From the NCBI GenBank assembly GCA_029242765.1, contig JAQWTJ010000056.1, positions 1 through 32,826 on the forward strand: 32,826 bases of DNA, in the 5' to 3' direction. The stretch's first letter is position 1, and every line of letters starts with the position of its first letter. Positions 2,649-31,074 of this stretch are shown one piece after another. Under the pieces are notes generated by a model. The model was not told the DNA's origin. It searched no databases and saw nothing but the letters and a program-made list of their open reading frames with translations. The DNA comes from Flavobacteriales bacterium. Lineage in GTDB: Bacteria > Bacteroidota > Bacteroidia > Flavobacteriales_D > Sanyastnellaceae. The translations under genes were made by a program, and so were the position numbers.

Positions 2649-3311
2649 TCAGGCTTCGACGCCGAGCGTAGTAAGCTCGGCAATCATTGCTTCTGGGTTA
2701 TCGGCCTTGAATACGGCTGATCCGGCCACAAGAACATTTGCGCCGGCGGCTACAAGTGCGGAGGCATTGCTTGCATCCACACCGCCGTCAATTTCGATGT
2801 CAACTTGAGCGCCGCGCGCGTCAATCAAAGCACGCAATTCTGCCGTTTTTTTCAAGGTGTTCTTGATGAAGCTCTGGCCACCAAAGCCCGGGTTGACACC
2901 CATCAAGCAGACCAGATCTATGTCTTCAATGATGCTTTCAAGCGAATTCACAGGGGTGTGAGGGTTCAGCGCGACTCCAGCCTTCATTCCGGCCTCACGA
3001 ATCGCCCCAACGGTGCGGTGCAGATGATTACAAGCCTCGATGTGAACGGTCAAGTTTGCGGCGTTCAGGTCGGCAAAGGCTTGGATGTAGCGGTCGGGGT
3101 CTACAATCATCAAATGCACATCCAATGGCTTGTTTGCATGGCGGGCGATGGCCTTTAGCACAGGCATTCCGAAGCTGATGTTTGGGACAAATACACCGTC
3201 CATGATGTCGATGTGATGCCAACCCGCACGGCTGCGTTCGATCATTTCAATGTCGCGTTGAAGATTGGCGAAGTCTGCCGCTAGAATAGAAGGTGCGATG
3301 ATGTGTGGCAT
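2649..3311 (-). CDS. rpe: Ribulose-phosphate 3-epimerase
   Basis: Interconverts ribulose 5-phosphate and xylulose 5-phosphate in the cytosolic pentose phosphate pathway. At 220 aa it has the usual family length and a TIM-barrel pattern. The expected metal and catalytic residues are visible: Ser8 in APSILAADF, His33 and Asp35 in HIDIMDG, His66 in LDVHLMI and Asp175 in EIDGGVD. The phosphate-binding region is also present (NPGFGGQSF near 140-148, VAGSAVF near the C-terminus). The start is fixed by family alignment (MPHIIAPSIL). It is transcribed away from coaE, and only 28 bases separate the two chosen start codons. A perfect TAnnTTTG element ends 4 bases before the ATG. Confidence 0.97.
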   Translation of the reverse strand: MPHIIAPSILAADFANLQRDIEMIERSRAGWHHIDIMDGVFVPNISFGMPVLKAIARHANKPLDVHLMIVDPDRYIQAFADLNAANLTVHIEACNHLHRTVGAIREAGMKAGVALNPHTPVNSLESIIEDIDLVCLMGVNPGFGGQSFIKNTLKKTAELRALIDARGAQVDIEIDGGVDASNASALVAAGANVLVAGSAVFKADNPEAMIAELTTLGVEA

Positions 3312-3315
3312 GAGG

Positions 3316-3323
3316 CAAAATTA
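3316..3323 (-). promoter_or_regulatory. Bacteroidota -7 promoter element (TAATTTTG) for rpe
   Basis: Read on the reverse strand, TAATTTTG matches the Bacteroidota -7 consensus TAnnTTTG at every fixed position and is followed by 4 bases and then the rpe ATG. A TTG lies 22 bases upstream on the same strand, within the range described for the -33 element. If transcription starts a few bases after the box, the rpe mRNA would have almost no 5' leader. Confidence 0.55.
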
Positions 3324-3327
3324 TTTC

Positions 3328-3335
3328 GACTTTTG
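3328..3335 (+). promoter_or_regulatory. -7-like element (GACTTTTG) for coaE
   Basis: GACTTTTG matches TAnnTTTG at five of six fixed positions and is followed by tagc and then an in-frame GTG (3340). The same 4-base spacing is seen at rpe, mtaB and gcvT, which supports GTG 3340 as the coaE start. No clear -33 element is seen. Confidence 0.4.
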
Positions 3336-3339
3336 TAGC

Positions 3340-3984
3340 GTGGAACAAAACGATGGAAATTCTGTGTTTGAGGCCGGGGCTGTGCGACGGGCGCCACAAG
3401 TGATAGGGCTGACCGGCGGAATTGGAGCCGGGAAGACGACCGTGTGTCGGATTTTTGAGTCCTTGGGCGTGCCGGTGTGGTCGGCCGACGATGCGGCGAA
3501 GCGCTGTTATGTGGAAGATGTCGAGTTGAGGGGCTCTGTTGTGGCTCGCTTCGGACCGGCTGTATTCGTGGCGGGCGAGTTGGATCGTGAAGCTTTAGCG
3601 AAGCTGGTGTTTGAGGATGCGGCCGCGCTGGAAGATCTCAATGCGCTGGTGCATCCGGCGGTGGCGCGCAGTTTTTCAAGTTGGAGAGCCGGTCGGGATG
3701 CACCGTATGTCATCCGCGAGGCGGCCATCCTCTTCGAGTCCGGTAGCAACGCGGATTGCGCAGCGGTCGTGGTGGTCACGGCCCCCGAGGCGGTGCGCCT
3801 TGCACGCGCAACGTCAAGAGACGGTCTCACCCAGGAGGCCGTTCGGACGCGCATGGCCCACCAATGGCCAGAGTCGCAACTCATTGAGCGTGCAGACCAT
3901 TTGGTAGACAGCGGCGGTCGCTTGCCGCTGGTGCCTCAGGTGGTGCAGATTCACGAAGAATTATTGGCCCTCGTCAGCAAATAA
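3340..3984 (+). CDS. coaE: Dephospho-CoA kinase
   Basis: Phosphorylates the 3'-hydroxyl of dephospho-CoA with ATP, the last step of coenzyme A synthesis. The P-loop GGIGAGKT lies at residues 26-33 when GTG 3340 is used, followed by the substrate-binding stretch SADDAAK and the lid region (ARATSRDGLT). The frame is open further upstream (ATGs to 3265), but those starts would run into rpe and add residues with no family counterpart. GTG 3340 gives 214 aa, close to the usual 200, and sits 4 bases after a -7-like box; GTG 3364 and GTG 3382 remain possible. The 3' end overlaps the oppositely oriented peptidase gene by 24 bases. Confidence 0.93.
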   Translation: MEQNDGNSVFEAGAVRRAPQVIGLTGGIGAGKTTVCRIFESLGVPVWSADDAAKRCYVEDVELRGSVVARFGPAVFVAGELDREALAKLVFEDAAALEDLNALVHPAVARSFSSWRAGRDAPYVIREAAILFESGSNADCAAVVVVTAPEAVRLARATSRDGLTQEAVRTRMAHQWPESQLIERADHLVDSGGRLPLVPQVVQIHEELLALVSK

Positions 3985-4986: not shown

Positions 4987-5023
4987 GGCGTGAAAGTAGC
5001 GTGTGAAAGCGTACATTGAAGCC

Positions 5024-7863: not shown

Positions 7864-7871
7864 TATCTTCG
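7864..7871 (+). promoter_or_regulatory. -7-like element (TATCTTCG) before the ATE/Bpt-like gene
   Basis: TATCTTCG matches TAnnTTTG at five of six fixed positions and ends 4 bases before GTG 7876, the same spacing as at rpe, coaE, mtaB and gcvT. It lies in the 18-base gap after the aldehyde dehydrogenase stop, so the gene may have its own promoter as well as read-through. No convincing -33 element is seen. Confidence 0.35.
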
Positions 7872-7875
7872 TTCC

Positions 7876-8940
7876 GTGCTTGTACAGACTCATTTTCCTA
7901 AGAAGTTGGCGCCTCATCGCTACGACAGCTACCTGGCTTCTGGGTGGTTCCGCGGGAGCGTGATGCTGTACAAAGTGGACTTGCTTTGTGTGGACAGTGG
8001 AGTGTTTGGCGTGGTGAACATCCGTCTGAACCTCGACCAGCACGAGTTGAAGAAGAGCCAACGCAAACGCATGGCCCGTGCCGATCGCAAGTTCACCACA
8101 ACCGTGAAGCCGTGTGTATTGGATGCCATTGGTGATGCTCAGGAGGCGCTTTACGACCAGCAAAAACACCGTTTTCAAGGCTTTGTTCACGGCACCTTGC
8201 GTGAGTATTTGGCCTCGGGCTTTCCCCACACCGTGTTCGACACGTATGAGCTGTGCGTGTACGACGGGGAGCGTCTGGCAGCCGTGAGTTATTTTGATTT
8301 TGGAGACCGCTCCATGGCCAGCTTGATTGGTTTGCAAGACCCCGCGTACCAAACGCATGGCTTGGGCATTTACACCATGCTTTGTGAAATTGAGTTTGGA
8401 AAGCAGCGGGGCATGCGATGGTACTACCCGGGGTATGTGTTCGATGAGCCTTCTCCGTTTGACTACAAGCTGGACCTGGGCCAAATGGAGTACTACACCC
8501 CAACCAAGCGCTGGGGGTCGCATAAGAAGTTTGATCCGACCCTGACCCGGGCGCATCGGCTCCGCTTGGAAATGAATGCGCTCAGTTCGGCCTTGAAGGC
8601 CGAGGACTTGCCGCATGATATTTTGCTCTACCCCTTCTTCTCATTGGGCTTCATGGCGCATTGGAGTTTGGAATTTGTAACGCTGCCCATGTTTGTTGAA
8701 CTGGTCAACCGCAAGGGCAAGCGGCAGATTGTGGGTTTTGAGCCGCTGCGCCAAGTCTTCATCGTGATGGACGTGCAGGAGGCGAGTCCAGAGTCCATTA
8801 TGATTGACATGGACTACCGGACACAGACTGGAGATAGCAGTGCCAGTTGCACAGAAATTCTGCGCTGCAAAATGCCATTGATTCAATCGACTTCTGTAGA
8901 AGGTGTGATTGATTTCTTGAACATGTTTAAGGCGCAATGA
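7876..8940 (+). CDS. ATE/Bpt-like aminoacyl-tRNA--protein transferase (N-degron family)
   Basis: A 354-aa protein with the two-part layout of arginyl/leucyl-tRNA-protein transferases, which add an amino acid from tRNA to the N-terminus of proteins and mark them for degradation. The N-terminal part has FPKKLAPHRYDSYLASGWFR, matching the P-x3-A-x3-Y…GWRRSG pattern of ATE, then LDQHELKKSQRKRMARADRKF, matching the N-R-x-Q-K-R-x-L-K-R-N region. The C-terminal GNAT-like part has HGLGIYTMLCEIEFGKQRGM and YYPGYVFDEPSPFDYK, matching L-G-x-Y…Y-x-G-Y…Y-K. The Cys pairs near the N-terminus of ATE1 and Bpt are absent; only one Cys remains near residue 38 (LLCVDSG). The donor amino acid and targets are unknown. 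The stop overlaps the xth start by 4 bases. Confidence 0.78.
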   Translation: MLVQTHFPKKLAPHRYDSYLASGWFRGSVMLYKVDLLCVDSGVFGVVNIRLNLDQHELKKSQRKRMARADRKFTTTVKPCVLDAIGDAQEALYDQQKHRFQGFVHGTLREYLASGFPHTVFDTYELCVYDGERLAAVSYFDFGDRSMASLIGLQDPAYQTHGLGIYTMLCEIEFGKQRGMRWYYPGYVFDEPSPFDYKLDLGQMEYYTPTKRWGSHKKFDPTLTRAHRLRLEMNALSSALKAEDLPHDILLYPFFSLGFMAHWSLEFVTLPMFVELVNRKGKRQIVGFEPLRQVFIVMDVQEASPESIMIDMDYRTQTGDSSASCTEILRCKMPLIQSTSVEGVIDFLNMFKAQ

Positions 8941-14740: not shown

Positions 14741-14748
14741 TAGGTTTG
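14741..14748 (+). promoter_or_regulatory. Bacteroidota -7 promoter element (TAGGTTTG) for mtaB
   Basis: TAGGTTTG matches TAnnTTTG at all fixed positions and ends 4 bases before the mtaB ATG. The nearest upstream TTG (14725) is closer than the usual 19-23 bases, so the -33 part is weak. The 110-base region between mtaB and the divergent FG-GAP gene (14643-14752) must hold both promoters; on the reverse strand only an imperfect TAGTTTAG, 17 bases before that start, is seen. Confidence 0.5.
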
Positions 14749-14752
14749 TGCC

Positions 14753-16102
14753 ATGTCAAATGTGGGCCGCGTTGCATACGAAACCTTAGGCTGTAAGCTG
14801 AACTTCAGTGAGACCTCGATGTTGGCTTCGACGCTGACAGAAGCTGGTTTTGCGCGGGTCACGGTTTCTGAAGGAGCTGATGTGGTGGTGGTCAATACAT
14901 GCAGTGTGACCGACCATGCTGATTCAAAATGCCGCAACATTGTGCGCCGCGCCCTGGCTGCCAATCCCGAGGCATACGTCGCGGTGATTGGATGTTATGC
15001 CCAATTAAAACCCAAAGAGATTGCCGCCATTGAGGGGGTGGACTTGGTGTTGGGGGCGGCAGAAAAGTTTGACTTGCCAGGCTTGCTTGCTGAGCGCTTG
15101 GGAGCAACGGCTGATGGTTCGGATGTGGACTTGGGCTCGGGGGACGGTGGAGCAGAAATTCGGAGAAGTGAAATCAAGGCCGTAACGGAATTCTTCCCCG
15201 CTGTATCGCTAGGGGACCGGACGCGGAGCTTCCTCAAAGTGCAGGACGGCTGCAACTATTTCTGTGCGTTTTGCACGATCCCTTTAGCGCGCGGGCGGTC
15301 GCGCAGCGGGTCAATCAACCAGACGGTAGCACAGGCGGAGGTGGCGGCGAAATCCGGGGCAAGGGAAATCGTGCTGACGGGCGTGAACATTGGAGATTTT
15401 GGGGCTGGAGGTGACGAAGACCTTCTTGGCTTGGTTCGCGCATTGGACCATGCTGAGGTGTTGGCGAGCGTGAAGCGGATGCGTATTTCGTCCATTGAGC
15501 CCAATTTGTTGGCTGAGGACCTCATTGAGGCGGTGGCCTTGTCAAAAAAGTTTCAGCCGCATTTTCACGTGCCGCTGCAAAGCGGATCGGATGCCGTGCT
15601 GAGCGCGATGCGAAGGCGCTACCGCACGGATTTGTACCGGCAGCGCATCGAAGCGATTCGCAGTGCGATGCCCACGGCGGGAATCGGAGTGGATGTGATT
15701 GTGGGGTTTCCAGGAGAGACGGAGGCTCAGTTCATGGAGACGGTCGACTTTTTGACGGATTTGCCCGTGAGTTATCTGCACGTGTTCACTTACAGCGAGC
15801 GCGCAAAGACGACGGCGCTGCGGATTGACCAGGTGGTGCCTGTGCCTGAACGGCGAAGAAGAAATGCCGTGCTTCGCCAATTGTCCCTGAAGAAACAAAG
15901 AGCACACGCTGAGTATTTTGTCGGGCTGGAGCGGTCCGTCCTTTTTGAGGCTGCTGTCCGAGACGGCCTCCGCGAGGGCTACACTCCGGAGTACGTTAGG
16001 GTGGGAATGGATGCCGAGTTGTGTGAGGCAGGTGAAGTATTGAACGTCAAGCTGGGGCCGCTGAAATGCGGCTTGCTTTCCGCCGAACGAATTCGCTCTT
16101 AA
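14753..16102 (+). CDS. mtaB: tRNA t6A37 methylthiotransferase
   Basis: A radical-SAM enzyme that converts t6A to ms2t6A at position 37 of ANN-decoding tRNAs. The 449-aa protein has the full family layout. The N-terminal UPF0004 domain carries three cluster cysteines (Cys14 in TLGCKLN, Cys50 in VNTCSVT, Cys81 in IGCYAQ). The radical-SAM triad CNYFCAFC is at residues 167-174, followed by TGVNIGDFG, RISSIEPN and HVPLQSGSD, with a short TRAM-like C-terminus. The LGCKLN and QDGCNYFCAFC patterns fit MtaB better than MiaB or RimO. The ATG is preceded at 4 bases by a perfect TAnnTTTG box. The lgt gene follows after 48 bases. Confidence 0.95.
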   Translation: MSNVGRVAYETLGCKLNFSETSMLASTLTEAGFARVTVSEGADVVVVNTCSVTDHADSKCRNIVRRALAANPEAYVAVIGCYAQLKPKEIAAIEGVDLVLGAAEKFDLPGLLAERLGATADGSDVDLGSGDGGAEIRRSEIKAVTEFFPAVSLGDRTRSFLKVQDGCNYFCAFCTIPLARGRSRSGSINQTVAQAEVAAKSGAREIVLTGVNIGDFGAGGDEDLLGLVRALDHAEVLASVKRMRISSIEPNLLAEDLIEAVALSKKFQPHFHVPLQSGSDAVLSAMRRRYRTDLYRQRIEAIRSAMPTAGIGVDVIVGFPGETEAQFMETVDFLTDLPVSYLHVFTYSERAKTTALRIDQVVPVPERRRRNAVLRQLSLKKQRAHAEYFVGLERSVLFEAAVRDGLREGYTPEYVRVGMDAELCEAGEVLNVKLGPLKCGLLSAERIRS

Positions 16103-17401: not shown

Positions 17402-17950
17402 GTGACTTCTGCGCAAATGAAAATCGACCCCGCCCATTCTGTACAGACACGGCAAGCGTTTTCAATTTGGGTTGAAGAGAAGTACGCCGTGGTGTATCAC
17501 ACGGTTGTGCGCATGGTGCTTTGCAAGGAGGATGCTCAGGACATTGTACAGATTGTCTTTATCAAGGCTTGGCAAGGGATTGAGAAGTTTGAGGGGCATG
17601 AAAAACAGCTTCATGCTTGGCTCATGCGCATTGCTCACAATGCGGCCATTGACGCCTTGCGCAAAAGAAAGGTGCGCCGAACCGTGTCTCTCGACACCCA
17701 AATGGAGCAGCGCGTGGAGTCTTTGGAATCGGATCCCTTCTTTGACGGGGATGCCGCACTTGCCCATTTGCACGCCGCGTTGGAAACCTTGCCCGACAAA
17801 CAGCGACTGGTTTTCAATTATCGATACTTTGACAACCTGCCCTACGCTGAAATAGCGGAGATCACCGGCACATCAATTGGAGCATTGAAGGCTTCTTACC
17901 ACTTTGCAAAATCAAAGGTTGAAGCGTACGTGTTAAACCACAGTGCTTGA
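17402..17950 (+). CDS. ECF-type RNA polymerase sigma factor
   Basis: A sigma-70 family protein of about 182 aa with region 2 (residues about 20-90: YHTVVRMVLCKEDAQDIVQI, VFIKAWQGIEKF, LHAWLMRIAHNAAIDALRKR) and region 4.2 (about 125-175: LETLPDKQRLVFNYRYFDNL, YAEIAEITGTSIGALKASYH). The absence of regions 1 and 3 marks it as an ECF factor. Starts at TTG 17396, GTG 17402 or ATG 17417 are possible; GTG 17402 lies 3 bases after GTTCTTTG, a partial match to the -7 box. It heads a three-gene unit with a small membrane protein and a Spy/CpxP-like periplasmic protein, an arrangement common in Bacteroidota and thought to sense the envelope. The inducing signal is unknown. Confidence 0.92.
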   Translation: MTSAQMKIDPAHSVQTRQAFSIWVEEKYAVVYHTVVRMVLCKEDAQDIVQIVFIKAWQGIEKFEGHEKQLHAWLMRIAHNAAIDALRKRKVRRTVSLDTQMEQRVESLESDPFFDGDAALAHLHAALETLPDKQRLVFNYRYFDNLPYAEIAEITGTSIGALKASYHFAKSKVEAYVLNHSA

Positions 17951-23627: not shown

Positions 23628-23635
23628 TACCTTTG
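23628..23635 (+). promoter_or_regulatory. Bacteroidota -7 promoter element (TACCTTTG) for the UPF0173 gene
   Basis: TACCTTTG matches TAnnTTTG at all fixed positions and ends 7 bases before ATG 23643. The 115-base gap 23528-23642 otherwise holds no gene or clear terminator. An in-frame GTG (23637) lies one base after the box and would be upstream of any likely transcript start, so ATG 23643 is preferred. Confidence 0.5.
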
Positions 23636-23642
23636 AGTGGGC

Positions 23643-24332
23643 ATGGAAATCACGTACTACGGGCACAGTTGCTTCGGCATCGCATACGGCAAGACTGCAT
23701 TGCTGATTGATCCGTTTATTCGGCCGAACTCGCTCGCTTCGCACATTGATGTCGATGCGCTTGAGCCCACCCACATCTTGCTTACCCATGGCCACGCTGA
23801 TCACGTGGCGGATGCTGAAGACATTTCACGACGTACGGGCGCTGCAATTCTGGCCGCGTTTGAAGTGTGCAATTGGTATGAGGCGCGTGGAATTGAGCAG
23901 CTCATGCCGTGCAATCACGGCGGCGTGTTTCAATTGGATGGCGGCGAAGTAAGCGTGCGTTCGGTGGCCGCTGTGCATTCTTCTGCGATGCCTGACGGTG
24001 CATACGGAGGTCAGCCGATGGGCTTTATCATCGAGGCCGGAGGTCGACGGGTGTATTGTGCAGGCGACACGGCATTGACTATGGAAATGGAACTGATCGG
24101 CCGGCATTGGACTCCTGATGTGGCGCTCCTGCCAATTGGTGATTGCTTCACGATGGGCGTCACAGATGCGATTTTTGCGGCCGGCATGGTGAAATGCAAG
24201 CATGTGATTGGTTCCCATTATGACACCTTTCCTCCCATTAAAATTGACCGCGATGCGGCTGCTGCTCAATTTCAGGCGGCGGGCTGCGTTCTCGACTTGC
24301 TCGAGATTGGCGCAACGACAACATTAAACTGA
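23643..24332 (+). CDS. UPF0173-type metal-dependent hydrolase (metallo-beta-lactamase fold)
   Basis: A 229-aa protein with the MBL-fold metal motif HGHADHVAD (near residue 48), an N-terminal MEITYYGHSCF typical of UPF0173/UlaG-like hydrolases, CAGDTAL with a metal-binding Asp, and GSHYDTFPPI near the C-terminus. The family is soluble and its substrate is not established, though related UlaG is a lactonase. ATG 23643 gives the family N-terminus; the frame allows GTG two codons earlier. The parA gene follows after only 6 bases, so partition-gene transcripts may begin at the promoter of this gene. Confidence 0.92.
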   Translation: MEITYYGHSCFGIAYGKTALLIDPFIRPNSLASHIDVDALEPTHILLTHGHADHVADAEDISRRTGAAILAAFEVCNWYEARGIEQLMPCNHGGVFQLDGGEVSVRSVAAVHSSAMPDGAYGGQPMGFIIEAGGRRVYCAGDTALTMEMELIGRHWTPDVALLPIGDCFTMGVTDAIFAAGMVKCKHVIGSHYDTFPPIKIDRDAAAAQFQAAGCVLDLLEIGATTTLN

Positions 24333-29949: not shown

Positions 29950-29957
29950 TATTTTTA
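29950..29957 (+). promoter_or_regulatory. -7-like element (TATTTTTA) for gcvT
   Basis: TATTTTTA matches TAnnTTTG except at the last base and ends 4 bases before the gcvT ATG. The gap between gcvT and the divergent toxin gene is 37 bases, so a promoter here would be partly inside the toxin gene. No clear -33 TTTG is seen at 19-23 bases. Confidence 0.35.
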
Positions 29958-29961
29958 CCCC

Positions 29962-31074
29962 ATGCAAGACACCTTGTTGAACACCTCCTTAACTGAGCAC
30001 TTCGAGTCCATCGGAGCTCGCCTCGTTCCTTTTGCGGGCTACATGATGCCTGTTCAATTTTCGGGCCTCAAGGCGGAACACGCTGCTGTGCGCACGGCAG
30101 CCGGTCTATTTGACGTCTCGCATATGGGCGAGTTGCACTTTCAGGGCGCCGCTGCCTTTGATTTCTTGCAATATCTACTGGCCGGTGATGTGGCCAAAGC
30201 CCGCCCCGGCCGTTGCCTGTATACCGTGTTGCTCAACGATGAGGGCGGCATCATTGAAGACTTGCTTGTGTATGGCTTAGCCCAAGACCGTTTTATGCTG
30301 GTGGTCAATGCGTCCAACCGTATGGAAGTTGTGGCCGTAATCGGTGAGCGTTTGGCGAGCTGGGCGCTTGATAATGGTAGAGCGGACGAAGTGACTCTGG
30401 TCGATCGCAGCGATACAACGGGCTTGATTGCTTTGCAGGGCCCGGCTTCCGATGCCATTGTTGAGCAGGTGATTCCTGGGGCTGAGTCGCTGGAGTTTTA
30501 TGACAATAGGGAGTTTGATCACCCCGTGTTTGGGGCCTTAATAGTGAGCGCGACGGGGTACACCGGTGAGCGGGGATTTGAGATTTACTGTAGCGTAGAG
30601 CAGACCGTTTCGATTTGGAACACCTTGATGGAGGCCGGCGCACCGTCCGGTCTGATTGCGGCAGGGCTTGGGGCGCGAGACACCTTGCGCTTGGAAAAAG
30701 GCTACTGCTTGCACGGGCAGGATATTGGCCCGAGCCGCACACCGGTCGAGGCCGGCTTGAATTGGACGGTCGGCTGGAAGACTGAATTTGCGGGGAAAGC
30801 TGCACTTGTCAGGCAGAAAGAGTCAGGAGTGCAAGTGAAGCGCGTTGGCATCAAATTGTTGGACCGAGGCATCCCACGCGCAGGTCACGAGGTGGTGGAC
30901 TCTGCTGGTGAAGTGGTCGGTGAGGTGACCAGCGGCACGCAAAGCCCGACGCTAAATGCGCCGATAGGCATGGCCTATGTGAATGTAGTCCTTGCACAAG
31001 TGGGCACCCAGTTTGCCGTCCGCATCCGGAACAAGGATGTGGCCGCCGAAGTGGTGAAAGTTCCTTTTTGTTAA
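29962..31074 (+). CDS. gcvT: Glycine cleavage system T protein (aminomethyltransferase)
   Basis: Transfers the aminomethyl carbon of glycine from lipoylated H protein to tetrahydrofolate and releases ammonia. The 370-aa protein has the family start (TSLTEHFESIGARLVPFAGY, MMPVQF), GLFDVSHMGEL, the catalytic Asp region LLNDEGGIIEDLLVY, LIALQGPAS, ATGYTGERGFEIYC and the C-terminal barrel (GEVTSGTQSPTLNAPIGMAY). All catalytic parts appear intact. The remaining gcv genes are not in the window, as is common in Bacteroidota. It is followed after 10 bases by comB, and the two may share a transcript. Confidence 0.97.
   Translation: MQDTLLNTSLTEHFESIGARLVPFAGYMMPVQFSGLKAEHAAVRTAAGLFDVSHMGELHFQGAAAFDFLQYLLAGDVAKARPGRCLYTVLLNDEGGIIEDLLVYGLAQDRFMLVVNASNRMEVVAVIGERLASWALDNGRADEVTLVDRSDTTGLIALQGPASDAIVEQVIPGAESLEFYDNREFDHPVFGALIVSATGYTGERGFEIYCSVEQTVSIWNTLMEAGAPSGLIAAGLGARDTLRLEKGYCLHGQDIGPSRTPVEAGLNWTVGWKTEFAGKAALVRQKESGVQVKRVGIKLLDRGIPRAGHEVVDSAGEVVGEVTSGTQSPTLNAPIGMAYVNVVLAQVGTQFAVRIRNKDVAAEVVKVPFC

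Follow-up and report, generated by a model that had tools for sequence, protein, structure and literature searches.

Leaderless mRNAs are known in other bacteria and are thought to be rare in Bacteroidota, whose members lack Shine-Dalgarno sequences and whose ribosomes choose start codons in a way that is still under study. Leaderless genes of Actinobacteria and Deinococcus-Thermus carry a TANNNT box about 12 bp before the start codon, and the same survey, in which only Pribnow-like boxes were detectable, reported leaderless genes in only 1 of 37 Bacteroidetes/Chlorobi genomes, at 2.4% (PMC3160421). Transcripts with leaders of up to 10 nt amount to 13% in Flavobacterium johnsoniae (PMC6847099), leaderless transcripts to 5.5% in F. 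psychrophilum (PMC9723704), and transcripts with a leader under 10 nt to 3.7% in Bacteroides thetaiotaomicron. Because of their supposed rarity, leaderless mRNAs of Bacteroidota have been left out of consideration (PMC6847099, PMC9723704). The -7 element of promoters of sigma-ABfr, the primary sigma factor of Bacteroidota, stops 4-5 nt short of the transcription start in F. johnsoniae (PMC6847099), and the -7 box spans -12 to -5 in F. psychrophilum (PMC9723704).

The window, that is, the whole 32,826-nt stretch of DNA analysed here, is contig C74 of a 110-contig, 2.22-Mb Flavobacteriales genome with a GC content of 55.6%. The assembly contains no 16S rRNA; judged by mtaB, its nearest named relatives are MAGs of uncultured bacteria, among them Crocinitomicaceae bacterium TMED114. 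A first-pass annotation of the window had placed a TAnnTTTG box exactly 4 bases before the start codons of rpe, coaE, mtaB, an ATE-like gene and gcvT, and a perfect box 7 bases before a UPF0173 gene. On re-reading, all six boxes were found where they had been reported, the first five with 5/6 or 6/6 matches (Table 1). Matches were scored over the 6 fixed bases of the motif, and the spacing k is the number of nucleotides between the end of the box and the start codon. The box of nfeD (TACATTGA, 5012..5019 (+), ATG 5024), which had been listed as a weak further case, is in place as well, but with a match of only 4/6 it was not counted and nfeD was dropped as a member. The upstream neighbour of mtaB is divergent. 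An ECF-type sigma factor gene (Sigma70_r2, Sigma70_r4_2) also lies in the window, at 17417-17950 (+).

Table 1. Candidate -7 boxes and the genes that follow them in the window
Feature	Position	Strand	Box match	Spacer and start codon	Pfam
rpe -7 box TAATTTTG	3316..3323	-	6/6	cctc, then ATG 3311; k=4	
rpe, ribulose-phosphate 3-epimerase, predicted leaderless	2649..3311	-			PF00834
coaE -7 box GACTTTTG, divergent to rpe box	3328..3335	+	5/6	tagc, then GTG 3340; k=4	
coaE, dephospho-CoA kinase, probable GTG start, predicted leaderless	3340..3984	+			PF01121
ATE-like -7 box variant TATCTTCG	7864..7871	+	5/6	ttcc, then GTG 7876; k=4	
ATE_C-domain (arginyl-tRNA-protein transferase-like) gene, GTG start	7876..8940	+			PF04377
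mtaB -7 box TAGGTTTG	14741..14748	+	6/6	tgcc, then ATG 14753; k=4	
mtaB-type radical-SAM methylthiotransferase, predicted leaderless	14753..16102	+			UPF0004, Radical_SAM
UPF0173 -7 box TACCTTTG	23628..23635	+	6/6	7 nt before ATG 23643; predicted leader ~2-3 nt	
UPF0173-like metal-dependent hydrolase (beta-lactamase fold)	23643..24332	+			Pfam match
gcvT -7 box variant TATTTTTA	29950..29957	+	5/6	cccc, then ATG 29962; k=4	
gcvT, aminomethyltransferase, predicted leaderless	29962..31074	+			PF01571, PF08669

The position of the window boxes, not their number, is unusual: the whole window holds 10 perfect boxes against 10.3 expected. This lack of an overall excess is what chance and base composition would give, the boxes being short AT-rich words near ATG that were picked out while 28 genes were scanned. 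We give that explanation virtually no weight, because it is already refuted by the genome-wide spacing histogram, which the first-pass annotation had named as a check. The histogram was computed over 2.09 Mb (94% of the genome, taken in stretches) with 1380 gene starts, which came from a simple codon-score caller that is blind to upstream signals and disagrees with the box for some genes. Perfect boxes showed a sharp peak at exactly 4 bases, with 20 genes at k=4 against 0.6 expected (Poisson P ~1e-23). For any one spacing the baseline is 0.60 perfect boxes in 1380 starts, or about 1 in 2300, in agreement with the earlier estimate of one in several thousand. Counts by spacing were 1 in all at k=0-3, 20 at k=4, 11 at k=5, 4 at k=6, 7 at k=7 and 3 at k=8-9; beyond these they rose again over a wide range, 10-30 nt. 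When the motif was permuted, TAnnTTTG gave 20 matches at k=4 and each of the 29 other permutations at most 1, and the signal recurs in 37/37 genomes of the family.

The peak was also seen by other counts. The whole genome has 37 copies of TANNTTTG-N4-ATG, compared with 12 of its reversed form and 10 of the version with a spacing of 3. When all ATGs were counted without reference to called starts, the same k=4 peak appeared; the contigs used for this were partly chosen for k=4 matches, a bias that is largely removed in the 94% set. With one mismatch allowed (at least 5/6), 65 boxes lie at k=4 against 6.9 expected (1380 starts), and the tolerated mismatches are specific, TTCG being the most enriched variant (15 vs 0.5), followed by CAnnTTTG, TTTC and TTTA. 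The ATE-like and gcvT boxes belong to the kinds enriched at this spacing. Over k=4-8, the excess of relaxed boxes corresponds to about 115 genes, or 8% of starts. Genome-wide, the word TAnnTTGT also gives a small peak, at k=5 (5 vs 0.11); it is similar to the F. psychrophilum SM5 motif TAnnTTGY (PMC9723704) and may represent an alternative sigma site.

Transcription in Flavobacterium begins 4-5 nt past the end of the box, and with a spacing of 4 it is therefore predicted to begin at the A of ATG. A C occupies box+4 in 78% of k=4 boxes, 59% of k=5 boxes, 60% of k=7 boxes and 52% of leadered boxes. Its being common in leadered boxes too indicates that the C belongs to the promoter and not to the start codon, and we infer that it is the base before the transcription start, the next base at k=4 being the A of ATG. 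A box fixed relative to the start codon, like a ribosome-binding element, could instead be a translation signal within a longer leader, with no promoter role and with mRNAs that begin further upstream. We consider this unlikely: identical boxes at k=12-39 are in excess as well and share the C at box+4; the motif has been described as the -7 element of sigma-ABfr (PMC6847099); and few box-led genes are operon-internal, although genes in that position would need a translation signal too. Among the 22 genes with a perfect k=4 box, just one lies less than 30 nt behind a co-directional gene, compared with 421 of 1305 among all genes (P=0.002), and for relaxed boxes at k=4-8 the operon-internal genes were 19/119 vs 356/1305 (P=0.003). 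Shine-Dalgarno 5-mers at spacers 4-12 were not above baseline over all genes of the genome. Upstream of the k=4 boxes in the genome, neither TTG nor TTTG was enriched as a -33 element, which counts against a sigma-ABfr promoter, although the F. johnsoniae element is weak as well (PMC6847099) and hence does not strictly define such promoters.

Another explanation is that these are ordinary leadered genes with misplaced start codons, the true starts lying further downstream. The caller did put the start further in for some genes, but errors of this sort would give no cluster at precisely 4 nt, and alignments of the mtaB, rpe and ATE-like homologues begin at residue 1 or close by; we therefore judge this very improbable. 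The interpretation that remains by far the most probable is that sigma-ABfr promoters with a -7 box ending 4-5 nt before the start codon make leaderless mRNAs, and that this is a housekeeping architecture in the family. Leaderless mRNAs had been proposed in the first-pass annotation, and the k=4 peak, the C at box+4, the small number of operon-internal genes and the conservation described below all point the same way. Under the mechanism that we propose, sigma-ABfr would recognise the -7 box placed 4-5 nt before the start codon and RNA polymerase would start on the A of ATG, after the C at -1, giving an mRNA that begins 5'-AUG. Spacings of 6-8 would yield leaders of 1-4 nt, those of 1-3 nt being indistinguishable from zero by sequence. 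Ribosomes would then initiate directly on the AUG at the 5' end, with no ribosome-binding region, and in the family of the window genome leaderless mRNAs would be an established arrangement for a sizeable minority of the housekeeping genes. The box-led genes of the genome are housekeeping genes, namely those for LytB (ispH-type), Nfu, CarA, CinA, RlmN, PurK, MnmA, ClpS, a class II tRNA synthetase (D/K/N group), a biotin carrier protein and others.

Leaderless genes in mycobacteria have GTG as well as ATG starts, and the first-pass annotation had used the box to set GTG starts in the window. As a rule this was not supported, because TANNTTTG-N4-GTG was not enriched (6 vs 17) in the window genome, nor was it enriched in the family. 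Among called GTG genes, 3/111 have a box of at least 5/6 at k=4 against about 0.6 expected. The two individual cases fared better. The GTG start of the ATE-like gene is supported by homologues in many relatives that align from residue 1 or 2, and that of coaE by relatives in which an ATG lies at k=4 close to this position; GTG 3340 is the probable start.

TAnnTTTG-N4-ATG exceeded the k=3 count in every one of the 37 sampled genomes of the family, with a k=4/k=3 ratio of 6.2 within the genus and 2.8 in the rest of the family; in other Flavobacteriales families the ratio was 0.8 to 2.0, the signal being weak or absent in several. These ratios are a guide only, because base composition differs between genomes. 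Across a 296-genome sample of the phylum the pattern was patchy, some families being enriched and others at or below the control, and named isolates such as Flammeovirga, Marinoscillum and Segetibacter had little or no k=4 excess.

At single loci, the mtaB box (5/6 or 6/6) was present at k=4-7 in 21 of 30 loci from relatives in the family. The nearest perfect box lay at k=4-8 in 38 of 79 named Bacteroidota loci and in 24 of 47 among the more distant ones, which include Chitinophaga, Segetibacter and Salibacter. In Chitinophaga, Flavipsychrobacter, Pinibacter and others (L120-L199), the mtaB TAnnTTTG is followed by a pyrimidine-rich 7-8 nt ending in CCTT or CCCTT and then by ATG, a predicted ultra-short leader that this one gene has retained across the phylum. 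Four MAG records titled Chryseobacterium gleum (L134, L137, L141 and L147) have an mtaB that groups among unnamed Flavobacteriales, and their titles look wrong.

A k=4 box precedes rpe in several relatives, and in L254, L255, L258 and L262 the divergent rpe/coaE pair has k=4 boxes at both genes, back to back, as in the window. The relatives carry (G/C)ACCTTTG-N4-ATG at coaE, facing the equivalent at rpe. The two starts are about 30-80 nt apart (3311-3340 in the window; likewise in these four loci), and the -7 boxes point apart and are near-palindromic (CAAAGGT...ACCTTTG in relatives). With starts so close and boxes near-palindromic, the two predicted promoters must overlap, and mutual exclusion between them is possible.

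Of the excess boxes within 60 nt of a start in the window genome, 43% (bootstrap 33-54%) lie at 3-8 nt, a leaderless or near-leaderless spacing. The corresponding fraction in pooled loci of more distant Bacteroidota is about 14%, from few genes; estimates for other families rest on pattern counts and pooled loci. A wider reading has, in our estimate, an even chance of being correct: that leaderless mRNAs would be one of two main promoter architectures in the whole uncultured family, several-fold more than in any Bacteroidota studied so far; leaderless pairs (rpe/coaE) would be conserved back to back, and mtaB would have stayed leaderless or nearly so in much of the phylum. A lineage in which leaderless mRNAs are common, and in which a sequence rule names the genes, offers a direct test of leaderless initiation on non-Shine-Dalgarno ribosomes, and the box-spacing rule helps to fix start codons in annotation.

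Leaderless genes on the known Bacteroidota promoter are of a known kind, while their frequency and conservation are undescribed in the literature that we searched. The -7 box is the same as in the sigma-ABfr promoter (TTTG / TAnnTTTG), and the known box-to-start distance of 4-5 nt fits the k=4 peak and the C at box+4; the window genome differs in often setting the box directly on the start codon and in tolerating TTCG, with no -33 TTTG seen. The leaderless genes of Actinobacteria and Deinococcus-Thermus likewise combine a short, constant spacing between promoter box and start codon with the lack of a Shine-Dalgarno sequence, but they depend on another sigma factor and another box, and the excess in the window genome is at ATG, GTG not being enriched. 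F. johnsoniae, F. psychrophilum and B. thetaiotaomicron share with the window genome the phylum, the box and the presence of a leaderless minority. In these three species the leaderless or short-leader share is 13% (leaders up to 10 nt), 5.5% (leaderless) and 3.7% (under 10 nt) of transcripts, whereas the value for the window genome is about 43% of recognisable boxes by sequence alone, a comparison that is approximate because the published figures measure transcripts and ours measures boxes.
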